From positions 1-64,000 of IMG/VR virus record IMGVR_UViG_3300010371_000002: a stretch of 64,000 nucleotides of DNA; one strand, written 5' to 3'. Of the stretch, positions 41,174 through 58,487 are shown piece after piece. Position 1 is the stretch's first letter, and every line of letters starts with the position of its first letter. The stretch comes from a virus. Under the pieces are notes generated by a model. The model did not search any database and was not told where the DNA came from. It saw only the letters and a program-made list of their open reading frames with translations. The position numbers were made by a program, and so were the translations under genes.

Positions 41174-41557
41174 CTACTCCGGTAAGGGATTTGCCTCGAT
41201 GGTGACCGGATTGTCTTCGGGGGTGTCCGGTGGCTTGGGTTGTGGCGCTTCCGGCAGTGGAATCTCGGATGCTTGCTGCACAGATGGTTTGGTCACAACA
41301 ATTCCACTCTCTGCCTCAATTTGCTCAAGTGTTTTAAGCTCTGAGTGGTCGAGACGGTTGCCATTTGGATCGGTGAGGGGTTGGCGTGGGTAGCCGATCG
41401 GGAAGCGGCACCGGGGGCATTCGCCCGTGGACTTCACCTCGGGGGCATATTCGGGCGTGACCTCCCGTCCGTCGGGGCCGACCACGTTTGTTCGCGAGGG
41501 CATTGCGGAGCCGTTGTGGTTGTATCCGCAGTTCGCGCACTGTTTTGTAAGGTCCAT
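41174..41557 (-). CDS. Hypothetical zinc-ribbon protein in connector region
   Basis: 127 residues, AGGAG upstream. C-x2-C near the N-terminus and C-x2-C about 27 residues later form one ribbon; the C-terminal half is Pro/Glu-rich and probably disordered. Lies between two connector genes. Unknown function. Confidence 0.5.
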   Translation of the reverse strand: MDLTKQCANCGYNHNGSAMPSRTNVVGPDGREVTPEYAPEVKSTGECPRCRFPIGYPRQPLTDPNGNRLDHSELKTLEQIEAESGIVVTKPSVQQASEIPLPEAPQPKPPDTPEDNPVTIEANPLPE

Positions 41558-43016: not shown

Positions 43017-44045
43017 TTAGATGGAGGTTCCGCTGATCAGGTAAGCACCGACGATCTTGCCGGTGGACGGGGCATCGACCGCGACGGCCTTGGCAGTCCT
43101 CATGCAAGATGCCTCGATGAACTGGCCCTTGCGGTCCTCGTTGCGGTACCGGCGCACCTGGAAGCCGCGCACGCCCGTGGTGTCGTCCGGAGCCTCGAAG
43201 GTGCGGAAGCCGTGGACGGTGCGCGGGCCGACGCCGACGCTGCGGTAGAACACGACCGCGAGCGCCTGCCCCTGGTCGTCCACCCACATGTTGTTCGTCG
43301 TCACGGCCGCGCCTTCCGCCGCCGTGTTGTACTGCTGGTTCCCTTCCAGGACCGTACAGCCGCGAAGGTTGCGCACCAGACCGCTTTCGCTCAGTCCCTC
43401 CGGGTTGGTGAACTTATACAGGTCCTTGTAGTCCGGGTGGTCGGCGAGCGTGAGGGCGCTGTCCAGGGTGAGCAGAATGTAGTTCGCTTCCCGGTAGACA
43501 CCCTTGCGGACCGCGATGCGCCCGTCCCGGATGTTCGAGAACGGATGGGAGTTCGCGGAGGCGTACGAGAGCCAGGAGGTTCCCGTGCTGCCGGTGGTGA
43601 GCTGGGCCGTGTAGCCGCTCGCATACCCGGAGCGCGTCCCGACGATGGTCGCCGTGAACTTCTCGTAGTCGAGTTTGATGCGCTCGGTCACGAGATAGGT
43701 GGCGTCGATGTCGGGCTGCAGCGGGCTGTCCGCGATGGCGATTTCCGCGTCCGTCACGAGATCGCGCAGGGCGAACTCCTCCGTGTAGTAGGAGTCCGTG
43801 GAGAGCGTGAAGTCGATCTCGGCCGCTTCGGTTTTTGGCCGCCGGATGGACCGGGGCCGGTTATTGGCGTCCAGTCCGCTGGTCGAGAGGAACGTCGCCC
43901 GGTCGTACACGAAGTACTTGTTGGAGCGCACGTCCACCGGCAGCGGCGGGGCCACGACATCCGCAATCAGGGAGTCGTTCATGTAGGCGATCGAGACCTC
44001 GGTGAGAGCGCGATCGATGTGGAGACTTGTCAGCGCAGGCATCAT
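43017..44045 (-). CDS. Major capsid protein
   Basis: 342 residues, AGGAGGG before ATG. S-I-A-Y-M-N-D-S-L-I-A-D-V-V-A-P-P-L-P-V and the following S-N-K-Y-F-V-Y, plus a long helical/beta body ending G-A-Y-L-I-S-G-T, match the HK97-fold capsid proteins of the lambda E-like type. It follows the cement gene, as expected. Confidence 0.8.
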   Translation of the reverse strand: MMPALTSLHIDRALTEVSIAYMNDSLIADVVAPPLPVDVRSNKYFVYDRATFLSTSGLDANNRPRSIRRPKTEAAEIDFTLSTDSYYTEEFALRDLVTDAEIAIADSPLQPDIDATYLVTERIKLDYEKFTATIVGTRSGYASGYTAQLTTGSTGTSWLSYASANSHPFSNIRDGRIAVRKGVYREANYILLTLDSALTLADHPDYKDLYKFTNPEGLSESGLVRNLRGCTVLEGNQQYNTAAEGAAVTTNNMWVDDQGQALAVVFYRSVGVGPRTVHGFRTFEAPDDTTGVRGFQVRRYRNEDRKGQFIEASCMRTAKAVAVDAPSTGKIVGAYLISGTSI

Positions 44046-44054
44046 GCCCTCCTT

Positions 44055-44453
44055 TTACAGCCGGGTCAGTTCCGGGTTGATCAGTACGTCCACCAGATTG
44101 CCCGACGTGGCGTTCGTCACCGCCGTCCCGACCACCTGGGCCACGATCGCCCCCGTGGTATTGGGCACGATCGGGACAGCCTGCCCGATGGCGTTCGAGG
44201 CGACTTGCTGGCCTGCCGTGATGGTTGCGCCCGCGATGATCTGGCAGATATCATCGATCTGGACCGCGACGTTGCCGTCCGAGTCCGAGGGTTCGCCGGT
44301 GACACCGGCGAACGGCTGGGCGTTCGCGGTCGAGAGCGCCACGGCTCCCTGGTTCACCGTCGAAACGATGACGATCAGGTTCGCGCCGACGGGCGTGGTG
44401 GGCGCTCCGTCAACCGTGAATGTCCGGCGTCGGCCGGTATGCTGATAGGCCAT
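44055..44453 (-). CDS. Capsid decoration/cement protein
   Basis: 132 residues, directly upstream of the capsid gene. All-beta, rich in V/T/A with repeated G-x-x-V-x-x turns, as in DUF2190/head decoration proteins. Starts as the head fusion gene ends (shared base at 44453). Confidence 0.65.
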   Translation of the reverse strand: MAYQHTGRRRTFTVDGAPTTPVGANLIVIVSTVNQGAVALSTANAQPFAGVTGEPSDSDGNVAVQIDDICQIIAGATITAGQQVASNAIGQAVPIVPNTTGAIVAQVVGTAVTNATSGNLVDVLINPELTRL

Positions 44454-45076
44454 TATTTTCCTCCTGCCACCGGCGCGCTGGCGCGGTACGCCGCCGCCTT
44501 ATCGGGATGCTCGCGCGAAACGATTTCGAGCGCCTTACCGAACGTGATGTTGTCCTTCTTGGCGCGGTCCCGCGCGAAGGTGATGATCTCCGCGTCATCG
44601 GCACCGTTTTGGGTGCCGCGCGGAACTCGTGTGGACTGGAAGCCCACGAGCGCCGCGATGGGCTCCCGGTCCTGGTACAGAGGCCGGATGTGGGCGTCGA
44701 AGAACGCCGGTTCCACTTCCCCAAGCTTCTTCGTCAGCGATTCCGCCTCGTGCGAGGTGATGCGGAACTCATCCGCCATGGACTTGATCCAGGCGCTGTT
44801 CTGCGCGAAATGCGCCGCTTTCGCCTGCTCGGCCTGCTTCGTCTGCTCGGCGGAAAAGTCGGTTTTGAGCGCGACATTCTCTTCCCGAAGTTTTGCGAGT
44901 TCGACTTTCAGTGAACTGAACTCGGCCTTGTCGGCCTCACTGAGACCACCACCGGTCGTGGTCGCCCCTGCATCGGCTTCCTTGGTCGCTTCCGCGAAGA
45001 CGGCTACGACCTGCTCTTCCGTCGCGTCGTCCGGCAGCTTCTTGAACTTTGCGGCGATTGTCTGCCACACATTCAT
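44453..45076 (-). CDS. Scaffold from internal start (Z-like)
   Basis: A nested start at ATG 45076 with the strong site GGAGAAAAAA gives a 207-residue product in the same frame as the head fusion. It is mostly coiled-coil (A-E-F-S-S-L-K-V-E-L-A-K-L-R-E-E-N) and helical. Mu makes its scaffold Z from an internal start of I in the same way. Confidence 0.6.
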   Translation of the reverse strand: MNVWQTIAAKFKKLPDDATEEQVVAVFAEATKEADAGATTTGGGLSEADKAEFSSLKVELAKLREENVALKTDFSAEQTKQAEQAKAAHFAQNSAWIKSMADEFRITSHEAESLTKKLGEVEPAFFDAHIRPLYQDREPIAALVGFQSTRVPRGTQNGADDAEIITFARDRAKKDNITFGKALEIVSREHPDKAAAYRASAPVAGGK

Positions 45077-46315
45077 TTTTTTCTCCTTGCCGGACCTGTC
45101 GGCCGACATCATCGCGGGCAGGCTCGTCATCGAAGCTTGATGAGCGAGCGGGTGCCCAATGGCGAGTTTGCTCATGTACGCATCGCAGTCCGCGCCCATT
45201 TTGGCCGCGTTATCGTGATGCTTCTGGATCTCCCGCAAGAGTTCGGGAGTGATGAAGTCGGCCCGCCCCTCGACTTCCCGGGGCGTACCGAACATCGATT
45301 TTCCGGGGCAGTGCGCCCCCTGGCTGCACGCGAAGTCGTGTACGACCTGGTGCGGATTGCTGTAGTAGCCGCTGGTGTCGCCCATAAGGACCTTCCCTTG
45401 AGTCGTGGGTGGACCGCCGGACTGCCCGGATTTGAACCCGGCCGCCTCGGCGGCGTTGAAGGCCGCCATGAGCGCGGCCCCGGTGATGCGCGGATGCTCA
45501 ACGAGGGCGAGCCCCGTGAGCTTCTTCGAGGTCCGGTCCCATTCGCACGAGACGGGCTTGTCCTCGGGGAGCTGGCTGTCCAGCCACTTCGGGATCTTGA
45601 CGGTGCCGAAGAGCTTCTTGCCATCGGTCCGGGCGTCGATGACGTCGCCCAGCTTCCCGTCGAGCATCGTGGGGACATGCTCCAGGTCGATCGGCACCGG
45701 CGCGAAGTCCTGAACGGCCTGGTTCATCTCGGCCGTGTTCAGCGAGAACTTCTTATCGGGATAATCACCGACTTCGAACAGGAAGGAGTTCGGATAGTAG
45801 ACGTAATCGCCGTCCTCGAACCGGCTTCCTTGATTTGCAGTGAGGCTGAATGCCGCCATCTTGGCCTTCCTCTTTCCGGTGTAGCCTTTCGGCATCACCG
45901 CCGAATCGTCGTCTCCGTCATCGTCCGGCAGCCACGGCGCGACGATCTCGGGATCATGGAACTGATCCGCCATGCGCTTGTAGATCTTCTCAAGGTCCTC
46001 TTCGGCGGATTTCCGGGACGCCGCCGGGAGATCGGTCTGCTTCAGGCGGGCGGCGGCGTTGAAGGCCCCGTGCGGGATGATCGTGAGCTTCCCGCCCACG
46101 ATATCGGCAATCGGCAGCTTGTAGCTGGTGAAGAGCTTGGGGTCGCCCGCGCAGGCAAGGAACGCCTTGCCGAAGTTGCCTGTCGGCTCCTTGTCGGAGC
46201 CCGTGTGGTCCCGGACGCGCTTTGCCGCCGCCCCGGCGTCCCAGGGATGATCGCGCGGCGCGATGGGAAGCGAAATATCGCCCACCTTGAAGTGAACATG
46301 GGCTGGCTGTGGCAT
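44453..46315 (-). CDS. Protease-scaffold from internal start (I-like)
   Basis: ATG 46315 has AGGAG five bases before it, inside the fusion frame at residue 560. The product (620 residues) would carry a head-associated domain (D-H-P-W-D-A-G-A-A-A ... Y-K-L-P-I-A-D), the I-type protease (about fusion residues 711-860) and the scaffold. This suggests that separate protease is made as well as the fusion. Further possible internal starts lie at fusion residues 712 and 870. Confidence 0.5.
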   Translation of the reverse strand: MPQPAHVHFKVGDISLPIAPRDHPWDAGAAAKRVRDHTGSDKEPTGNFGKAFLACAGDPKLFTSYKLPIADIVGGKLTIIPHGAFNAAARLKQTDLPAASRKSAEEDLEKIYKRMADQFHDPEIVAPWLPDDDGDDDSAVMPKGYTGKRKAKMAAFSLTANQGSRFEDGDYVYYPNSFLFEVGDYPDKKFSLNTAEMNQAVQDFAPVPIDLEHVPTMLDGKLGDVIDARTDGKKLFGTVKIPKWLDSQLPEDKPVSCEWDRTSKKLTGLALVEHPRITGAALMAAFNAAEAAGFKSGQSGGPPTTQGKVLMGDTSGYYSNPHQVVHDFACSQGAHCPGKSMFGTPREVEGRADFITPELLREIQKHHDNAAKMGADCDAYMSKLAIGHPLAHQASMTSLPAMMSADRSGKEKKMNVWQTIAAKFKKLPDDATEEQVVAVFAEATKEADAGATTTGGGLSEADKAEFSSLKVELAKLREENVALKTDFSAEQTKQAEQAKAAHFAQNSAWIKSMADEFRITSHEAESLTKKLGEVEPAFFDAHIRPLYQDREPIAALVGFQSTRVPRGTQNGADDAEIITFARDRAKKDNITFGKALEIVSREHPDKAAAYRASAPVAGGK

Positions 46316-47992
46316 GGCGTCTCCTTTCAAGGGGATCACGAAGCGCCGCCCGCGCGCGTCCGAGAAGGTGATCTCGTCCACGGAATGCTCCGTGCCGATC
46401 AGGGAATCGTTTCCGGCGAACTTCGCGCCCTGGCCAGCCTTCACGTAGGCCACCGTCACATGCGGGCGGTAATCCGGGAACGTGACCGTGGTGTCGCAGC
46501 CGCTTCGGATCTTCTGGTGGAGCGCGTGCAGGTCCGGGCTGTGGACATCAAACTTCACGACATCATCGCGCCCGTCCTTGCCCTCGAACACGCTCGTGGG
46601 ACCGAACCGCAGCGTGACTGGCCCATGATCCTTCACAGCCGCCGCCACGGCATGCGGATCGAACGTATGGAGTCCGTAGCAGACCGTGCAGTGCGGCGTG
46701 TCCTCGCGGCCATCCTCGCCCATGTCAGCATCGGGGATGGATGCCGCAAACCCCGTCACGAGATCCGCGAGAGCGGGCGGAAGGTCGATCTGCGTGGACG
46801 CGAAGGTGTGCCGGAAGTCGCTCGCCCCGAGCCGTGCGGCCATCGCTCCACATTTCGGGCAGACATTGTAACGCCCTCGAACGTTGTCTTCTGTTTCAAA
46901 TTCGTGTCGGCAGTTCGTGCAGGCGAACGAGTACCGATGGGGTTTCTCCTCGCCCGTCGGCTTGTCGATGTGAAGCGACCCCAGATCCGTGAAAGATGCT
47001 TTTTCAGAATCATCGGGGGCAACTTCCAGGAAGCACTGGCAGCGAAAGCCGTGGCACGCGAGATCGAAGCTCTGCGGGTAGAGTCCGGTGGCCGCGAAGT
47101 CCTCGGCCGGCATCGGGCCAAGAGACGCCATCTCCAGGCAGTCGCGGCAGGATTCCTTCGTCGCCCCGATCCGCCAGATGATGGACTGCCCACTCTCCAC
47201 CGCGCCCGCGACCAATCCCGCCCAGTACTGCGACAGAATCGCGTTGCAATACAGCGTCACACGCCGCCGAACCGTATCATCCGAAAGTGGAGAGGGTTGC
47301 GACTGAGAAGTTTGATCTGATCCCTGCTCCGCAGCCGAATTAGCGTCCGCATTCTCGCGCGAGATATGAGCGGCATTGGCGAATAAGCGTAGTGCGTCAG
47401 CCTGAGTGTCTACAAATGGCTTTGTTGCGTCTTCTGGCGATGAAGCAGATCCCACGGGTGCTGCGGCGGTAAATCCTTCCTGGTAGGCTTCCTGGGCGTT
47501 CTTTTCGATACCGTCGATGGCTTCGGTGATCTCCGAACTCTCGGCGGATGTCACGGCCCCGTAGAGCAACAGCCAGAGCAGAATCAACCCATGGTGCAGG
47601 TTCGCGCTCATCCAGTGCGGCCGCCATGTCCACCCGTCAGGCGCGGAGGAATCGGCGCTGAACTGCCCCGGATGATCCGCTTCGAGCATCTGGCTCCAGA
47701 GTCTGGCGAACCAGGCGCGGCCAGCTTGCCCACCCCAGAGCAGGGCCGACACGTAGCCGGGGCTGTCATGGGGCAGATCGAGGAACCGGCGATTGCGGAG
47801 CCAGAACCGATGCGCCTTGCGTGCCTTGTCAGGGCTGACCGTTCCTCCTGTGGCGATTCGGTGCGCCCATGCGATGGTTCCGGCTTCCAGGCCGTCGCCG
47901 CCATGCCCCGCATCCACCATCCCGGCCCCCGTTCGGCATGCGTCCTGCACGGCTTTCGGTGGCTTGAAGTCGATGTGGACGTAATTGGACAT
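44453..47992 (-). CDS. Giant head fusion: F-like + zinc ribbon + 2H phosphoesterase + protease + scaffold
   Basis: 1179 residues. In order: a minor-head N-terminal domain (about 1-130, with A-L-L-W-G-G), Mu F-like head morphogenesis (about 235-325, W-R-I-G-A-T-K-E-S-C-R-D-C), a zinc ribbon (C358, C361, C378, C381), a 2H phosphoesterase domain (about 397-556) with the two His-x-Thr motifs H434-C-T-V and H511-V-T-V, a linker domain, an I-like protease (about 711-860), a small Cys domain (about 870-960) and a coiled-coil scaffold (973-1179). These are separate genes in most phages. No ribosome-binding site precedes ATG 47992. Confidence 0.75.
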   Translation of the reverse strand: MSNYVHIDFKPPKAVQDACRTGAGMVDAGHGGDGLEAGTIAWAHRIATGGTVSPDKARKAHRFWLRNRRFLDLPHDSPGYVSALLWGGQAGRAWFARLWSQMLEADHPGQFSADSSAPDGWTWRPHWMSANLHHGLILLWLLLYGAVTSAESSEITEAIDGIEKNAQEAYQEGFTAAAPVGSASSPEDATKPFVDTQADALRLFANAAHISRENADANSAAEQGSDQTSQSQPSPLSDDTVRRRVTLYCNAILSQYWAGLVAGAVESGQSIIWRIGATKESCRDCLEMASLGPMPAEDFAATGLYPQSFDLACHGFRCQCFLEVAPDDSEKASFTDLGSLHIDKPTGEEKPHRYSFACTNCRHEFETEDNVRGRYNVCPKCGAMAARLGASDFRHTFASTQIDLPPALADLVTGFAASIPDADMGEDGREDTPHCTVCYGLHTFDPHAVAAAVKDHGPVTLRFGPTSVFEGKDGRDDVVKFDVHSPDLHALHQKIRSGCDTTVTFPDYRPHVTVAYVKAGQGAKFAGNDSLIGTEHSVDEITFSDARGRRFVIPLKGDAMPQPAHVHFKVGDISLPIAPRDHPWDAGAAAKRVRDHTGSDKEPTGNFGKAFLACAGDPKLFTSYKLPIADIVGGKLTIIPHGAFNAAARLKQTDLPAASRKSAEEDLEKIYKRMADQFHDPEIVAPWLPDDDGDDDSAVMPKGYTGKRKAKMAAFSLTANQGSRFEDGDYVYYPNSFLFEVGDYPDKKFSLNTAEMNQAVQDFAPVPIDLEHVPTMLDGKLGDVIDARTDGKKLFGTVKIPKWLDSQLPEDKPVSCEWDRTSKKLTGLALVEHPRITGAALMAAFNAAEAAGFKSGQSGGPPTTQGKVLMGDTSGYYSNPHQVVHDFACSQGAHCPGKSMFGTPREVEGRADFITPELLREIQKHHDNAAKMGADCDAYMSKLAIGHPLAHQASMTSLPAMMSADRSGKEKKMNVWQTIAAKFKKLPDDATEEQVVAVFAEATKEADAGATTTGGGLSEADKAEFSSLKVELAKLREENVALKTDFSAEQTKQAEQAKAAHFAQNSAWIKSMADEFRITSHEAESLTKKLGEVEPAFFDAHIRPLYQDREPIAALVGFQSTRVPRGTQNGADDAEIITFARDRAKKDNITFGKALEIVSREHPDKAAAYRASAPVAGGK

Positions 47993-47997
47993 GGCAA

Positions 47998-48021
47998 CAA
48001 AAAAGCGCCCTCGGAGGCGCT
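47998..48021 (-). terminator. Intrinsic terminator touching the head fusion start
   Basis: On the minus strand AGCGCC...GGCGCT (48021-48016 with 48009-48004) is followed by six T, ending six bases before the fusion gene's ATG. It separates upstream leftward genes from the head fusion gene and leaves no room for a Shine-Dalgarno site. Confidence 0.7.
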
Positions 48022-49336: not shown

Positions 49337-50224
49337 TCAATAGGGATACTGGGCGGCGACGTCTTGCATTCGGAGACGGCGGAGCGCGGGCGGCAGGTAG
49401 CCATGGAATCCGCAGACGATGGGCTTTCGGTCATGCGGATCGCAATGCCCGCAGTAGTTCCAGGGATACCGGAGCGTCACAAGCCCCGCTTGATAATCAG
49501 GCTCATCCAGTAATAGCCGCATCATGGCGTCCTGGTCATCGGGAGACCCTTCGTGTTCCATGGCCCGCACGTGCTCGAAATAGCGCAGGCTGTCCGGTGT
49601 GACGCGCACATAGAAGCAGCCAGTCTGCCAGTGGAAGACATCGCCTGCCCAAGGGCAGAACCCGATAATCCGCATCCCGAGCCACGCATGCGTCGGAAGT
49701 GCCGTTCTCAGATCCACCGAGAGATCCGCCACGAATGAGTCGGCGTCGATCCAGAAGATATGCGTGTACCGACCGCTTCGCATGGCCTCCAGAATCAAGT
49801 CGATTCGGAACCATTTCGGGGAATGGTTCTCGCCGGGATCAGCCGCGAGGTATTCGTACCCCTGCCGGTCACAGTACTCGCGGTGCCGCGCTTCATGGTC
49901 CCGCACCATCCCCGCGAACTCACCGGACAGACCGCATGTCAAAAAGAGCGGTTTGGCATCCTGCGCGAAGCTTTCTCTCAGGGTGCCGCGCTCTGCCTGC
50001 TCATCCGGCAAACGATTTTGAGGCTTGGAATCGCCAATTCTTGCAACGGTAAAAGACGTGATTCTCGTGTGCGGGTTATATACTTCGTCCAGAATGCGAG
50101 TTGGGCATCCGGCTCGCTCGTCAAGAATACGTGCGATCAAAGATGGTTCCTTAACGCCCAGCACCAAGATCTCTGCATCGCTCACTTCAATAAGTGTGAT
50201 GGTGGAGTCATATTTATCGGTCAT
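49337..50224 (-). CDS. Glycosyltransferase (GMA12/MNN10-like fold)
   Basis: 295 residues from the ATG at 50224, four-base overlap with the gene upstream. After a short N-terminal extension it shows L-F-L-T-C-G-L-S, K-W-F-R-I-D-L-I-L-E-A-M and H-I-F-W-I-D-A-D-S-F, the D-x-D metal/nucleotide-sugar motif of GT34-type transferases, then D-D-Q-D-A and W-N-Y-C-G-H. It would transfer a sugar to a glycan or protein. First to finish in a three-enzyme cassette. Confidence 0.65.
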   Translation of the reverse strand: MTDKYDSTITLIEVSDAEILVLGVKEPSLIARILDERAGCPTRILDEVYNPHTRITSFTVARIGDSKPQNRLPDEQAERGTLRESFAQDAKPLFLTCGLSGEFAGMVRDHEARHREYCDRQGYEYLAADPGENHSPKWFRIDLILEAMRSGRYTHIFWIDADSFVADLSVDLRTALPTHAWLGMRIIGFCPWAGDVFHWQTGCFYVRVTPDSLRYFEHVRAMEHEGSPDDQDAMMRLLLDEPDYQAGLVTLRYPWNYCGHCDPHDRKPIVCGFHGYLPPALRRLRMQDVAAQYPY

Positions 50225-51141
50225 GCCACGATCCTTGTCACGGACTGAATGAAGGCGCTCAAATCCTGCTCGTACATGACGAGTTCGATATTGGGAACCT
50301 CCAACCAGCGCCGGAAGTAGCTCACCGGCGAGGAAAGCGGCTTGTTGCCGAGCACGCACGCCGGGAGGCTCTGGACCGCGCAGTAATGCGACAGGCCGCT
50401 CGCCGTCGTGATGACGCCAGAACTTTGTTCCGAGAGAGCCATCACCGCCGTCATGCTAGGGGCGCTGTTCACCAGATCAATAATTCTCGGATGTCTGCCT
50501 TTTGGTTCCCAGCCCTGCCCGACAAGCACATACGTCCACGGCGTGTAATTTACGAGGAACGACAGCGCTTGCTCCCAGTGCGGCCAGTGATCCTCGATGG
50601 GCGAGCTGTTGAGCGAAAGCGGATTGACCACAAAGAAGCGATTATCAATTTGCGATGAAACCGATGTGGCCCAGTTCCACGCCGATTGAGGAAGGCGCGC
50701 TCCATTCCACCGGTGGACCGCACGCTGACGCATCCAGGGCTGCGAGGCTCCCATGGTGGTATTCAGGACATGCCCCGTGACCCCTGCTCTTGCCCGCAGT
50801 TCCCTCGTGGGTTCCATGTCCTGATCGAGCGGCGTGTCGGCGATATACCGGCACACGCGCCAGTAATCCGCCCCGTCGCGAGGCTGCACATGAACGACTT
50901 CCCGAACCCCCGATTGAAGTCTCAGGAAACAAGGGATCATGGGATCTCGCGCCCAGCAGAGGATGCCGCCTTCGCCGATCATGGACCGGAACGCGCCGAA
51001 ATCGATCAGGCAATCGCCCCAAGCCCCTACGCACGTACCCCAGCGCAAAGGAGGGGCCGCCGGTCGCCATCGGTGCGGCTTGTCACAGGGCAGCGCGATA
51101 TTCCCGCCACGCCACGGGTCCGAAAAAGTGGTGTCCTCCAT
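50221..51141 (-). CDS. GT9-like glycosyltransferase
   Basis: 306 residues from the ATG at 51141, whose A is shared with the stop of the methyltransferase gene (TGATG). The C-terminal domain has G-V-I-T-T-A-S-G-L-S-H-Y-C-A-V-Q-S-L-P-A, resembling the donor-binding loop of heptosyltransferase-like (GT9) enzymes: a small/Thr-rich turn, then S-G-x-x-H. A GT-B fold is likely. Substrate unknown. Confidence 0.6.
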   Translation of the reverse strand: MEDTTFSDPWRGGNIALPCDKPHRWRPAAPPLRWGTCVGAWGDCLIDFGAFRSMIGEGGILCWARDPMIPCFLRLQSGVREVVHVQPRDGADYWRVCRYIADTPLDQDMEPTRELRARAGVTGHVLNTTMGASQPWMRQRAVHRWNGARLPQSAWNWATSVSSQIDNRFFVVNPLSLNSSPIEDHWPHWEQALSFLVNYTPWTYVLVGQGWEPKGRHPRIIDLVNSAPSMTAVMALSEQSSGVITTASGLSHYCAVQSLPACVLGNKPLSSPVSYFRRWLEVPNIELVMYEQDLSAFIQSVTRIVA

Positions 51142-52268
51142 CAAAGACACCTCTCAATCGGGACCGCGTACAGAACCGTCTCCCACCCCATATCCTCATA
51201 GCACCGGGCATAGAATCGGTAGTTCTCGCAGACACTTGCCAGAAAGGCTGGAATGGTCCACAGGTCGGATGGGCGGTGATAGAGGCAGCAGGCGATGACG
51301 GGGCGGTCACGGCGGATTGTTTCGACTCCACCCCGAAGCGCTTCGAGCTCGGCACCTTCGATGTCAAGCTTCCAGAGCGATGTGAGGTGGTATCGGCAAA
51401 GCTCATCAATCATCGCCGCCGGAACCTCAATACCCTGGTCGTCAATTCGTGCCGATACTCCCGATCCATTGATCCGCACGGACTTGACTGCCGGGTCACC
51501 GACGAGAGCGCACAAACGCCGTCGGCATTCCGGCAACAATTTCGACTGGATGGCGTTCAGCTTCTCGAAGTTTCCGGGGTTGGCCTCGATGGTGAAGACG
51601 CTAGCCTGGTACATGTCGTACCGCTTGCGGAACTCCAGCATGGTATCGCCGTCATAGGCTCCGCAGTCCAGAAAGCTCTCATCCTCGCGCGGTCGGTACA
51701 GCGTGAAGTCGAAGTAGATATCCTCTGGCAGCGAATACGATGGGCGCGGCTTGTACGTCGCCGTCCGGTCGCTGTAGGTTTTGAAGAAACCGTAGGCGTC
51801 CCGCACGACCTGCCGCGAAGCTTCATCGCTCCACGCATCAAGCCAGGTCTCGGGATGCGGCGGGACGTCGGCCCATGCGGGCAGCTTCAGCGCGTTGAAG
51901 TGCTGCCAGAGCGTCCACCAATGCACGATGCGGTCAGGAGAGACGCCAAGGTCGATAAGTTGCCGCCGCACATCTTCCGCGCCGAGGTGAACGAGGATGA
52001 CGTAGGTGGTACAAGCGGGAACCCAGCCATCATGATGAGGCGCATGGATGACGTGCCCATTGTAACCAACGGCTAAGTCGTGTTTCGCACCATCGTTATC
52101 CATGAAGGCGACGATAGGATATCCTGGGATACCGTCCGGGAAATGTTCCAATAGCTGGCGACAGAGATTGCCGCAGCCTACGATTGCAAGGAAGCCGGAC
52201 GGCGGGATAAGGCACTCCCATTCGGTTTGAGGTGTGGTGGCTTCACAAGGCGCTGTTACTGCTTGCAT
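51141..52268 (-). CDS. FkbM-family methyltransferase with N-terminal Rossmann-like domain
   Basis: 375 residues. N-terminal domain L-A-I-V-G-C-G-N-L-C-R-Q-L-L ... F-M-D-N-D looks like a sugar-nucleotide or redox-type binding fold. The C-terminal domain is FkbM: F-L-D-C-G-A-Y-D-G-D-T (SAM motif I), F-T-I-E-A-N-P, and L-D-I-E-G-A-E. Such enzymes O-methylate sugars. Together with the two downstream transferases it can build or cap a surface glycan. Confidence 0.7.
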   Translation of the reverse strand: MQAVTAPCEATTPQTEWECLIPPSGFLAIVGCGNLCRQLLEHFPDGIPGYPIVAFMDNDGAKHDLAVGYNGHVIHAPHHDGWVPACTTYVILVHLGAEDVRRQLIDLGVSPDRIVHWWTLWQHFNALKLPAWADVPPHPETWLDAWSDEASRQVVRDAYGFFKTYSDRTATYKPRPSYSLPEDIYFDFTLYRPREDESFLDCGAYDGDTMLEFRKRYDMYQASVFTIEANPGNFEKLNAIQSKLLPECRRRLCALVGDPAVKSVRINGSGVSARIDDQGIEVPAAMIDELCRYHLTSLWKLDIEGAELEALRGGVETIRRDRPVIACCLYHRPSDLWTIPAFLASVCENYRFYARCYEDMGWETVLYAVPIERCL

Positions 52269-54182: not shown

Positions 54183-55685
54183 CTATTTGGAATCGTTGTT
54201 ACCGGGTGCGCCGTCGGTCGTTTGGGTTGGGTTGTCGCCGGTGGCGTCGCCGTCACCGGATGCAGGCTTGCTCGTGACGTTCTGCGGCTTCTGACCGGCG
54301 ATCTGCTGGGTCTTCTTCACGAGGTCCGCATACTGCTGCGCCTGGTCGAGCATCTCCTGCTCTTCCGGGCTGATGGGCGGCAGGTCCATCTCATCGCGGA
54401 TCAGCTTCGCCGTCGGGGCGACGTTCCCGATCTGGACCAGTTCCCCGAACGCTTGGGCGAGCGCGAGCAGGTTCTTGCGGGCCTTCCCGAGCGACACCAT
54501 GGGGCAGAGATCAAGGGCGTCGTCACCATAGTTGTAGCGGATGAGTCGCCGCACGAGCTGATTGCTCAGCACACCCTCGACCATCTTGCGTGTGAAGTCG
54601 AAGCCGAACTGCTGCGTATTCTCGTGGACCTTCCCGAGGGCGTTGGTGTTCGTCCCGCCGGTCGTGCCCGTTGTGAGAGTGTTGCCAAGCACGGCGGTTG
54701 CGATCTGCTGCACGTGCCAGTCAGCCGCCATCTTGAACCCCTCCAGCGCCTTTGCATCGAGTGAGACGACCTCGTATTCACAGTTTTCCGGGAGAAGTAA
54801 TGAAGATCCGCTGCGCACCGAGTCGATGGCGGCTGACGCGGCAGCTAGCGCGACGGTATCGCCGAGAGGGTATTTGACCACCAGGAATGGGCTTCCAAAG
54901 CGTTCACAGCCGATGGTCCAGAACTTCAGGATGCCGTCGAGTATCCACCAGTGCTTGTAGCACGAGCGGCCGTCCCCATCCCCGTAGGGCAATCCGCGCT
55001 TCGGGTTGTGGGTGTAGATCAGCACCTTCTCGACGGGCAGCGGCTTCTGGTAGCCTTCGAGGGGCGAATAGGCATCCACGTTGATCGGGGCCATGGTCCG
55101 CAGATCCAGATCCCAGCCGATCTCCTGCGCGGGCTTGGAGGCGATGTACTCCAGCCCCGTCTTGCCGCTGTACTTGCCGCCCTTGAAGCGCTTCCAGGTC
55201 ATCTCAGAGACGTGGCAGCCGTCCCAGCATCCCCGCAGCAGCTCGAACAGCACCGCGAGGAAGTCCTGCGGGAAGTCCGTCTGGTCGTTGCGGATATTCT
55301 TCAGCACATATTTCGTGAACTGCGCGAGTTCGTCCGCTTTACCGAAATCGGGGTCTTCAGGTTCCCGGATGGCGCTCACGATGTCCCAGCCGTCGGAGAG
55401 GATCGCGTAGCGCTTGATGTCGAACGGGGCGCGGCACGCCGCCATCGTCAACATCTCATCGAACTTATCGAAACCAACCTGGTTGATGAGCTGGTCCAGG
55501 TTGAACTGCGCGAACCGGAACGAGGCGGCGTAGATGCTGTCATAGCCCGCCATCAGCGATTTGAAGCGGTCCCGCGTCTCCAGGACGACGGGCATCTGGT
55601 CCCGCACGTAAGCGGATGCCGTCAAGGCGTCGATCGGCTTACTGACTGGCTGGAGTGACCTAGCGACGGGTTTTGACTTGATCAT
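54183..55685 (-). CDS. Portal protein (DUF935, Mu gp29-like)
   Basis: 500 residues, starting four bases after the terminase large subunit stop. The body (F-D-E-M-L-T-M-A-A-C-R-A-P-F-D-I-K-R-Y-A, W-W-I-L-D-G-I-L-K-F-W, L-L-L-P-E-N-C-E-Y-E) has the features of the DUF935 portal family, and the C-terminal Gln/Asp/Thr-rich tail is typical. Forms the dodecameric ring at the head vertex and interacts with TerL. Confidence 0.75.
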   Translation of the reverse strand: MIKSKPVARSLQPVSKPIDALTASAYVRDQMPVVLETRDRFKSLMAGYDSIYAASFRFAQFNLDQLINQVGFDKFDEMLTMAACRAPFDIKRYAILSDGWDIVSAIREPEDPDFGKADELAQFTKYVLKNIRNDQTDFPQDFLAVLFELLRGCWDGCHVSEMTWKRFKGGKYSGKTGLEYIASKPAQEIGWDLDLRTMAPINVDAYSPLEGYQKPLPVEKVLIYTHNPKRGLPYGDGDGRSCYKHWWILDGILKFWTIGCERFGSPFLVVKYPLGDTVALAAASAAIDSVRSGSSLLLPENCEYEVVSLDAKALEGFKMAADWHVQQIATAVLGNTLTTGTTGGTNTNALGKVHENTQQFGFDFTRKMVEGVLSNQLVRRLIRYNYGDDALDLCPMVSLGKARKNLLALAQAFGELVQIGNVAPTAKLIRDEMDLPPISPEEQEMLDQAQQYADLVKKTQQIAGQKPQNVTSKPASGDGDATGDNPTQTTDGAPGNNDSK

Positions 55686-55688
55686 ACG

Positions 55689-57425
55689 TCACCAGACCTT
55701 CGAGGTTCCGTAAGGAGAGCGGGGAAGCTGCGCGGTAACACGCTGAGCCTCTTGCAATGCTTCGCGGGTGTTGCCGCCCTCCTTGACAAGCAGCCGGCGC
55801 AGAGCCTGTGTGGCCGTGTCCACCTGATCGTCATACGCGCCAGCCGGGAATGCGGACGATTCACCGATGAAGCCATGCACCCATGGGAAGATGTCAGGGT
55901 GCGGCAGGTACGTATTGCCTGACTCAATGACGGGCGTCACGGCATGAGCCCTGGCAATCTTGTCCCCGTCGGGTTCAACGGGCGTCAGCCCTGGGATGCG
56001 GCTTTTCAGCGACGCGATAATGGCCGGACCATTCGCCTTGTCCTCAACGAGCTTGGATGTTGCCTGCGGCCATTTTGCGGACAGTGCAAGGAGTGCGGCT
56101 TCAGTTGCCGTAAAATCCAGCTTGTCATGGACCTGATCAAGCAGAAAGGCGTCAGCCGCGAGCCGCGCCCAGACCTGCCCACACACATAGTCGCTTGTGA
56201 CAGCGCCCTTGAACGCCATATCCCATGACTGAATGGTCTCATCAAACCAGGGCGGCAGTTCGATGACCGGGCAATAGACGATATCGCCGTTGTCGAGGCG
56301 CAGGGGGTACGGTTCCGTGCGGAAACCCTTGGGCACCCAGAAACGCCACCAGCGCGCCTTGAGGATCGTTCCTTCGGCCGGCGCCGGACGCTGCTGCATC
56401 TGCCCCGCATACCCCGCCGTCCCAAGCCGCAGCCGCTCCGATTCCAACACCGACTTCGGAAACCGATCCGGCATAAGCAATTCGCCCGGAGTGGTACGTG
56501 GATCTCGGAACCCTAACGGGGATCTTCCTTCTTGGCAACTGGGGCATTTACAGCTCGTGGAGATCTCGTACTCCATGGGAAGAACCATGTGGTAGAGGTC
56601 GGGGAGCTTGGGCAGAACGTGGCCGGTCCAGTCGCGCTCATGCAAGCGCTGCATGATGCCGATGCGCAGGGACGACATCATATCGTTGACGCGGTTGCCA
56701 GCCTTCAGATCCCACCAGTCGTTCACGGACTGCCGCAGGGCGTCCGAGAGCACTTCCTTAGCGTCGTTGGGGTCATCGACAAAGAAGGCATCAGCCCGAT
56801 CTCCGGTGAGTTTTCCCCCACACGTCGCCGCGAGCCGGAAACCCCCTGCGGTGTTCTTGTAGAAACCCTTCGCATTCTGGTCGGCAGCCATCGACCACTT
56901 GGGTTCGAACCAGGATTGATACCAACTCGACTCGATCAACTCCCGACAATACATCGAGTCCCGAAGAACGAGGTTTTCCGAACCGGACGTGAAGATGGCT
57001 CGCCAGGAAGGCCAATGCAACCACATCCACGCCGTTGTGTAGACGCTGACGATGCGTGACTTCGCCGTACCGGGCGGGATATTGACCACGAAACTCTTGA
57101 ACCGCTGCTCGGGTTCGGGCAAGCCCTTCATGCGGGCACGCTGCACGGCCATCCAGTCTTCGAGCATCGCCTGCACGTGGTCGCAGATCGCGTCCATGTG
57201 CCAGTTCCACACCAGCGGCGTGGTCGGCTCCAGGACATGCCACCCTTCACGGAAGAACGTAGCGAGGGAGGCACGGGCAGCAATGGCAAGCTTTCGCTCT
57301 TCTGCCGTCAGGGAAGCGCGTTGCAGTTTTGCGGCGAGCTTCTTTTTGTCTTCCTCGCTGACTTTGGCGAAACGAAATGAGGGGGTATCAATCCGTGGAA
57401 GCCGGATCGGCGTCGATAGAATCAT
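55689..57425 (-). CDS. terL: Terminase large subunit
   Basis: 578 residues from the ATG at 57425, overlapping the terS end; ATG 57446 is also possible. ATPase part: Walker A-like N-I-P-P-G-T-A-K-S (about 115-123), Walker B A-D-A-F-F-V-D-D-P. Nuclease part: W-D-M-A-F-K (first Asp of the RNase H-like site), V-E-D-K-A-N-G, and Y-D-D-Q-V-D. C-x2-C near K-C-P-S-C suggests an inserted zinc site. Packages DNA through the portal. Confidence 0.85.
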   Translation of the reverse strand: MILSTPIRLPRIDTPSFRFAKVSEEDKKKLAAKLQRASLTAEERKLAIAARASLATFFREGWHVLEPTTPLVWNWHMDAICDHVQAMLEDWMAVQRARMKGLPEPEQRFKSFVVNIPPGTAKSRIVSVYTTAWMWLHWPSWRAIFTSGSENLVLRDSMYCRELIESSWYQSWFEPKWSMAADQNAKGFYKNTAGGFRLAATCGGKLTGDRADAFFVDDPNDAKEVLSDALRQSVNDWWDLKAGNRVNDMMSSLRIGIMQRLHERDWTGHVLPKLPDLYHMVLPMEYEISTSCKCPSCQEGRSPLGFRDPRTTPGELLMPDRFPKSVLESERLRLGTAGYAGQMQQRPAPAEGTILKARWWRFWVPKGFRTEPYPLRLDNGDIVYCPVIELPPWFDETIQSWDMAFKGAVTSDYVCGQVWARLAADAFLLDQVHDKLDFTATEAALLALSAKWPQATSKLVEDKANGPAIIASLKSRIPGLTPVEPDGDKIARAHAVTPVIESGNTYLPHPDIFPWVHGFIGESSAFPAGAYDDQVDTATQALRRLLVKEGGNTREALQEAQRVTAQLPRSPYGTSKVW

Positions 57426-57810
57426 GGCTCTTGCCTGCCGCCGCATCCGCCGAGGAAAGCGCCTCGATCAGCCGGATGCTCTTATCCGACATCACGCCGT
57501 AGAGCACCGCAAGCTGCTGGGGCGGGAACCCCTTGAGGTACTCGGGATCGCTCGCGACTTCGGCCTGAACCGCGAGCGCGTCAAGGCTGGCATGGAGGTA
57601 CCGGACGATTTTGCCCTCCGTGATCCCCCCATCCTTTTTATCGCGAACTTCCGCGAACTTACCTTCGCGCTTGGCCCGGTCCCGGATGCTGCGCACCGTG
57701 GACTCGCTCAGGTTGTACGCCTTGGCGGTTTCCGAGACGCCCTGCCCGGCGAGGAGTGCCCCCAGGACTGCCCCCTCGTCTTCTCCATTCGTCGCTTTCC
57801 CCCGCGCCAT
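57388..57810 (-). CDS. terS: Terminase small subunit-like HTH protein
   Basis: 140 residues. N-terminal HTH: A-L-L-A-G-Q-G-V-S-E-T-A-K-A-Y-N-L-S-E-S, then basic residues and a helical C-terminal half. Precedes and overlaps terL by 38 bases. Recognises the packaging site by analogy with other TerS. Confidence 0.7.
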   Translation of the reverse strand: MARGKATNGEDEGAVLGALLAGQGVSETAKAYNLSESTVRSIRDRAKREGKFAEVRDKKDGGITEGKIVRYLHASLDALAVQAEVASDPEYLKGFPPQQLAVLYGVMSDKSIRLIEALSSADAAAGKSHDSIDADPASTD

Positions 57811-57833: not shown

Positions 57834-58487
57834 TTATGCTCTCAAACAGGTGCCGCACGCCCGGGCGATATTGGCCTGTGCGATCGTCGGCTCCGTGTTC
57901 GCGAACTTCGCGAGCTCCGCGCTCTTGCCAGCGGATTTCCCCGCGCCATACCGCTCCCACTCGAACACGAACACTTCGACGTCATGCCCGCGCATGGCGA
58001 ACTGGGGAAGCCCCGTGGTCTTGCTGAACTTCGGCACATTGTCCTCATCGACCGCCTGTCCGGCGTGCGCCATTTCATGCTCGGCCGCACAGCAGAACGT
58101 GCCGTCGTCAGCCCTGGCGAAATATGGCGCGTAGAGCGTGATAAGGAAGTCCAGGTTCTTGGGACCGAAGAACTGCGTGAGCTGATAGTCCACCCGGGCC
58201 TTGAGCCATTTGTTGCCGTTGCAGCGCGGTTGCTCGCACATGCCGACAATCGTGATCCCGCTCTTTGTGTGCGGGACAGAACTCCATAGCCATCCGACCT
58301 GGGCAAACCGAAGGTGCTTGTGAATTGGGTTATGGATCGCGCCGTCCTGAGCGATGATATGCTCAAGCGCCCACTCACCGATTTCCATGGCAGGAACGAA
58401 CAGATCGCCACCATTCGGGCGGGATAGTGCCTTGGGCGGGAAGGGACGACTTCGCACAGCCTCGCGCTTTTGCTTCTCAGTTGGCAT
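57834..58487 (-). CDS. Putative phage metallopeptidase
   Basis: 217 residues. A zincin motif H-E-M-A-H preceded by C-C-A-A-E, and a downstream G-H-D-V-E-V-F that could give the third ligand, match the 'putative phage metallopeptidase' family. N-terminal half is alpha/beta with F-A-Q-V-G-W-L-W. Located just upstream of terS; substrate unknown. A Lys/Ala-rich tail follows. Confidence 0.65.
   Translation of the reverse strand: MPTEKQKREAVRSRPFPPKALSRPNGGDLFVPAMEIGEWALEHIIAQDGAIHNPIHKHLRFAQVGWLWSSVPHTKSGITIVGMCEQPRCNGNKWLKARVDYQLTQFFGPKNLDFLITLYAPYFARADDGTFCCAAEHEMAHAGQAVDEDNVPKFSKTTGLPQFAMRGHDVEVFVFEWERYGAGKSAGKSAELAKFANTEPTIAQANIARACGTCLRA

Follow-up and report, generated by a model that had tools for sequence, protein, structure and literature searches.

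The gene at 44453..47992 on the minus strand of a 64,000-nucleotide stretch of viral DNA (positions 1 to 64,000 of IMG/VR virus record IMGVR_UViG_3300010371_000002, hereafter the window) is a single open reading frame (ORF) with an ATG start and 1179 aa, and encodes a giant head-morphogenesis fusion protein of a bacterial virus from environmental DNA, in which a phosphoesterase of the 2H superfamily is embedded. Judged by its sequence and its predicted structure, the 2H domain is most likely an active enzyme carried by the virion. The reading proposed here, which as a whole has about an even chance of being right, is that an F-like portal-side minor head part, a zinc ribbon, an active 2H enzyme, a domain termed X, a putative protease and a scaffold tail resembling the I/Z products of phage Mu follow one another in this order, and that the 2H enzyme would stay in the head, be injected and cleave phosphodiester bonds. 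All features described below lie on the minus (-) strand.

An earlier note on this DNA, made from the letters alone, had described the gene as one uninterrupted frame, and no stop is indeed present across the 1179 codons. The same gene recurs in two further IMG/VR records (3 base differences in 13,129; identical across 707 aa); therefore, the fusion is real and is no assembly error. In the comparison of locus L002 with the window (13.1 kb, two samples), all three base differences fall inside the giant ORF, with one replacement, T48A. The window is part of a record of 93,960 bases, both ends of which carry a common stretch of 123 bases (terminal repeat), and this record is thus probably a complete genome.

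The 2H fold of residues 394-560 (46313..46813), with both of its His-x-Thr (HxT) motifs intact, is regarded as settled by profile matches, the predicted structure and invariance among relatives. Two Pfam families score above their cut-offs on this region, namely PF13563 (2'-5' RNA ligase 2; 43.8 bits, cut-off 27, E 3.5e-11) and, at a lower score, the Acb1 family PF23474 (35.3 bits, cut-off 27, E 1.2e-8); phrog_755 also matches (E 2e-11), while the LigT equivalog TIGR02258 of NCBIfam is not reached (18.9 bits against a cut-off of 65.7). The histidines named by the earlier note, H434 and H511, are at exactly those positions. The first motif, H434-C-T436 (PHCTV at 433; 46685..46693), is present in 66/66 relatives with the column and the second, H511-V-T513 (PHVTV at 510; 46454..46462), in 67/67, even though these relatives are only 34-49% identical; the invariance of the second is partly by construction, as it formed part of the search pattern, whereas the first is independent of that pattern. 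The same note had proposed a structure prediction and a comparison with Acb1 and LigT as a check. The AlphaFold (AF2) model built on 66 aligned relatives reaches a mean predicted local distance difference test score (pLDDT) of 96.5 and a predicted template modelling score of 0.90, and it displays the two HxT motifs within the internally duplicated alpha/beta fold by which the superfamily is defined. Against the PDB, Foldseek returned 42 matches at E<=0.001, those listed being 2H enzymes: the Deinococcus CPDase (drCPDase, E 2e-6) and Usb1 at the top, phage FBB1 Acb1 (E 1e-5), and E. coli LigT close behind (E 2.5e-5). In sequence comparisons, Acb1 proteins are the closest relatives of known structure.

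Relatives of the domain were collected by scanning viral contigs with the 2H alignment, using a search pattern built around the second HxT motif, and this survey yielded 80 loci, which amount to 65 distinct ones once the window's own virus is set aside. Within larger proteins lie 52 of these 65, while 12 stand alone and one is cut. Furthermore, a portal domain exceeds its Pfam cut-off in 12/22 scanned 2H proteins of 400-1400 aa (Phage_portal, Portal_Mu and Phage_portal_3), and two more fall narrowly below (Phage_portal_2 and Portal_Mu). MuF, zeta toxin or topoisomerase IB domains are also found on some of the 22, and the giant relatives carry the polyvalent-protein domains LPD1, LPD5 and LPD38 as well as helicase, FtsK-gamma and M15 domains. 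Mapped on the tree of 2H relatives, the portal label was gained or lost at least 5 times on well supported branches, and the window's own 2H domain has no resolved placement on this tree. Most of the portal-fused relatives score below the Acb1 (PF23474) cut-off. The repeated fusion of the same 2H clade to portals supports, at the level of sequence, a head association of the domain, and enzymes of this type, which many unrelated phages carry on their shell and portal proteins, probably enter the cell with the viral DNA. Some individual architectures may be recorded here: portal-2H fusions (L070, L058, L076 and L007) carry either an intein-like region together with MuF, or a zeta toxin, or topoisomerase IB, and Tunturi_5 gp321 combines 2H, ART-PolyVal (3 stretches) and GNAT domains in one protein. 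The 2H alignment found 7 loci in genome contigs, of which the three closest, when searched with the whole protein, matched via 2H alone. Scans of viral contigs with the whole protein, and with single F, 2H or protease sequences, returned the same virus only, and the plasmids searched gave zero matches.

The region upstream of the 2H domain is accepted, from its sequence relationships, as a head-morphogenesis part, though it is not Phage_Mu_F by profile. The earlier note had called it F-like, a label that stands for the family and not for the Pfam entry: Pfam, PHROGs and NCBIfam leave the domain (residues ~210-329; 47006..47365) unnamed, Phage_Mu_F (PF04233) gives no match at E<=1, and the F region has no hhalign match to small MuF, S78, U35-type or Mu I profiles. 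A Cys-rich family was suggested by the segment C282-x-x-C ... PQSFDLACHGFRCQC, and a DNA pattern drawn from the latter half retrieved 79 viral loci, of which 78/79 encode the motif in frame. W..G.T.EHC.DC occurs upstream in these loci although it is absent from the search pattern, and the resulting widespread family (loci L204-L282) has the pattern W..G.T.EHC.DC ... PQS..L.CGG..CDC.L and is often portal-fused. A profile hidden Markov model (HMM) of 70 phage relatives gives the window 83.5 bits, and a second HMM, restricted to the stretch that precedes the search motif, gives it 43.2 bits (E 6.6e-11). Several relatives lie at the C-terminus of portal proteins, a position that MuF occupies in other phages; the label was accepted because of these family scores and this placement. 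Among ten scanned family members, a Pfam match over the F-like part was seen in 0/10, and about 300 Acidobacteriota genomes gave chance-level matches only.

On either side of the F-like part stand two smaller modules. The N-terminal domain (N domain; residues 4-112, 47657..47983) is helical and of the WGG type, was recognised by tblastn and phrog_2859, and resembles a Nodularia phage minor head protein (35%, E 2e-11, tblastn). Some S78 head proteases start with a domain of this type, which also occurs in phage minor head and portal proteins; matches were found in L102, L121 and L162 among others, and in L242 the phrog_2859 family lies between the portal and the F-like part. The zinc ribbon of the earlier note could be upheld as a motif, CxxC-16-CxxC (residues 354-387 with C358, C361, C378 and C381; 46832..46933), and not as a family assignment, given that PF09723 reaches 23.7 bits, below its cut-off of 34.4.

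Downstream of the 2H domain, domain X (SYKLPIAD; residues 571-690, 45923..46282) is associated with head proteases: it shares 40% identity with part of gp11 of Streptomyces phage Maih and 34-37% with part of a Saccharomonospora phage protein, and in viral contigs it co-occurs with Peptidase_S78 or MuF, several of these proteins also carrying the N domain. Two such loci, L162:181-2373 and L102:4033-5964, encode head protease fusions with both the N domain and domain X of the window; Pfam additionally recognises Peptidase_S78 and a ferritin-like domain in L162, whose sequence pattern recurs in L102. The following region (residues 712-905; 45278..45859) is considered a putative head maturation protease because of its position, the neighbouring modules, the missing alternative and the residues H772 and S815. 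No S78 protease was found in the genome. The protease named in the earlier note thus keeps its place as a label, which profile searches and modelling left unconfirmed.

The scaffold-like tail (residues 973-1179, beginning MNVWQTIAAKFKKLPDDATEEQ; 44456..45076) matches the scaffold half of head proteases phrog_976 (E 5.7e-4) and phrog_2976 (E 5.6e-3), so the scaffold module proposed earlier is borne out by two matches, both weak. In a search of the virus's own genome, the giant ORF was the only one to match phrog_976 (44480-45046, E 2.8e-5), and in the alignment to Mu gpI the tail begins where the internal Z start lies in Mu gene I. Two candidate internal starts were noticed. The first, AAAGGAG-ATG at residue 560 (46313..46340; in-frame ATG at 46315), lies exactly at the boundary between 2H and X and has the best Shine-Dalgarno (SD) energy of 23 ATGs (-8.7), equalled by 28% of codon shuffles; the second, AAGGAG-ATG at residue 973 (45074..45100; in-frame ATG at 45076), precedes the scaffold tail with an SD energy of -8.5 (against -7.4 at the Mu Z start), equalled by 42% of shuffles. 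The annotated start of the giant gene has a weak SD and stands behind a terminator-like GC hairpin followed by T6 (48004..48021; separated from the start codon by 11 bases), a kind of site that is not above shuffles in this region. By analogy with Mu I/Z, the internal starts would fit a low-copy F-2H product and a high-copy scaffold made from one frame; they are treated as a lead and not as a result, because both SD strengths together are equalled in 12% of codon-shuffle trials, which is not significant.

The gene belongs to a head cluster on the minus strand, in which a terminase, a Mu-type portal, non-head genes, the giant protein, a decoration/scaffold-type protein and the major head protein follow one another. 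The terminase large subunit (55689..57446; phrog_38, E 1e-85) and the Mu-type portal protein (54183..55685; PF06074, 172 bits) stand upstream, while the head decoration/scaffold-type protein (44055..44453; phrog_673, E 1.5e-13) lies directly downstream of the giant gene and is followed by the major head protein (43017..44045; phrog_1005, E 1.7e-38). Between the portal and head genes lies a sugar-modification cassette (49337-52268 (-)) with an FkbM-type methyltransferase (PF05050, 50 bits) and two glycosyltransferase-like ORFs. An ORF adjoining the terminase (57834-58487 (-)) is a 'transposase' in PHROGs (phrog_513) but a putative phage metallopeptidase in Pfam (PF18894), and a small protein of the head cluster (41174-41557 (-)) has a rubredoxin-like CxxC motif (PF21349, below cut-off).

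The idea of a 2H enzyme on a head protein is already known, having been predicted in 2017, and actinophage fusions have been sequenced. Fusions of 2H to MuF or to the portal in polyvalent proteins were described by Iyer et al. (2017; PMC5512222), who suggested injection to counter nucleotide-signalled immunity and considered either a Usb1-like RNase or the destruction of immune nucleotides; the packaging-and-injection proposal was repeated by a 2022 survey (PMC9503650), and in Microbacterium phages MuF is fused to the capsid protease or to a VIP2 toxin (PMC7302621). The window's protein resembles these polyvalent proteins in bearing a 2H phosphoesterase on a portal-side head protein, with the same proposed delivery and anti-signal role; however, there the 2H sits simply on MuF or the portal, whereas here it is enclosed in an F-like / X / putative protease / scaffold frame. 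A similar plan is seen in gp11 of Streptomyces phage Maih and its relatives (Woodruffvirus), annotated 'capsid maturation protease and MuF-like fusion protein', which has the order MuF - 2H (HVT/HVT) - X - protease and is encoded between the portal and the major capsid. It differs in having a true Phage_Mu_F, a LigT-like 2H of another clade (below the Pfam cut-off), an extra winged-helix part and another protease, and in lacking the Cys-rich F-like part and the zinc ribbon. Gordonia phage EMoore gp13 and Tiamoceli gp18 (annotated 'head maturation protease' or 'RNA ligase') likewise unite 2H and a head protease in one protein, but in reversed order (protease first, 2H in the middle) and without an F-like part. 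The earlier note had called the 2H domain unexpected in such a protein, a view that does not hold, since fusions of 2H, MuF and head protease already exist in sequenced actinophages. With phage Mu, the virus shares a Mu-type portal, a scaffold tail starting at the Z position and a similar gene order, whereas Mu has separate F and I/Z genes and lacks a 2H. What is new here is the survey of the 2H clade, with its 52/65 members in larger proteins, 12/22 scanned proteins with a portal and invariant HxT motifs.

In the proposed mechanism, the scaffold tail and the F-like part would position the protein within the prohead, close to the portal, and the putative protease would probably split the modules, removing the scaffold and leaving the F-2H part in the mature head. 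During infection of a new cell, this enzyme would probably enter with the DNA and cleave a nucleotide or RNA phosphodiester through the metal-free HxT/HxT mechanism, its most attractive substrate being a cyclic or 2'-5'-linked immune signal. Support for these steps is highest for assembly on the portal side and falls successively for a competent 2H, its stay in the virion, its entry with the DNA and the destruction of an immune nucleotide or processing of RNA. Several observations weigh against this mechanism. LigT, CPDase and Usb1 structures match the 2H model as well as Acb1 does, and the fold therefore does not assign a substrate class. Acb1 binds its substrate through the stacking aromatics Y12, W74, F107 and W147, an adenine contact at E141 and a C-terminal lid at 145-152 (PMC9117128); aligned to it, the window's domain keeps the HxT tetrad and has Phe where Acb1 has W74 and F107; the contacts are nevertheless kept only in part, as the alignment is ambiguous at Y12 and shows no counterpart of W147 or of the lid. 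The likeness to Acb1 of T4 57B, FBB1 and Burkholderia phage BCSR5 comprises the 2H fold, HxT/HxT and aromatic residues at these two places, whereas Acb1 is a stand-alone 150-aa protein with the lid and the window's domain runs on into the linker and X. The protease region is unmatched in Pfam, PHROGs, NCBIfam and small hhalign profiles (S78, U35-type and Mu I), and its single-sequence model (pLDDT 36) gave no usable fold. Finally, the 2H module could be cleaved away and lost before packaging is complete.

The readings diverge on the substrate of the enzyme. A role on RNA, either opening the 2',3'-cyclic phosphates of tRNAs cut by host defence RNases or trimming RNA as Usb1 does, is possible though on the doubtful side: drCPDase and Usb1 are the top structural matches with LigT next, PF13563 outscores the Acb1 family, and a Usb1-like RNase is one main option of Iyer et al. 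(PMC5512222). Nevertheless, the same authors note that RNA ligases are never found in association with these 2H versions, Acb1 is the solved protein that matches best by sequence, and a search across the virus record, probably complete, found neither RNA ligase (PF09414, PF09511) nor KptA (PF01885), the absence of PF09511 being a weak negative as this profile passed its cut-off in zero control genomes. These absences, together with the fact that Acb1 is the nearest solved sequence, tip the balance towards an anti-signal role and away from RNA repair.

Whether the enzyme would leave the producing cell at all is a separate matter. It is somewhat unlikely that it is made late and acts in the dying cell or prohead on signals or RNAs raised by capsid production, the fusion serving timing and location rather than delivery; the gene does adjoin decoration and capsid genes in the head cluster, and scaffold and protease parts are normally removed on maturation, so that the fusion need not reach virions, but the clade is often carried by portals, which stay in the virion, and also by giant polyvalent proteins, a class for which injection has been proposed (PMC5512222). 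That the domain persists as a structural or regulatory relic, its nucleotide-binding fold serving assembly with no enzymatic role, is highly improbable: ferritin, zeta and topoisomerase accessory domains do occupy the same slots in head proteins, yet unused catalytic residues usually decay, and those of both HxT motifs are invariant among the divergent relatives. The proposed reading of a 2H enzyme retained in the head and injected can also be carried further, to a packaged Acb1-like nuclease, freed by the maturation protease, that would disarm cyclic-nucleotide immunity before phage expression begins and whose domain would have been recruited to portals several times independently as a general immune suppressor borne by virions; in this full form it is unlikely.

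The enzymes known to act against the cyclic-oligonucleotide-based antiphage signalling system (CBASS), T4 Acb1 among them, are described as being produced inside the host cell during infection. If the extended proposal is true, a virion-borne anti-CBASS enzyme would act from the first minute. The survey provides a testable list for this, with many portal-2H fusions whose catalytic residues are invariant and, in addition, cultured phages (Streptomyces Maih and Gordonia EMoore). Furthermore, a virion-borne role, if true, would explain why this 2H clade has landed recurrently on portals and head proteins.

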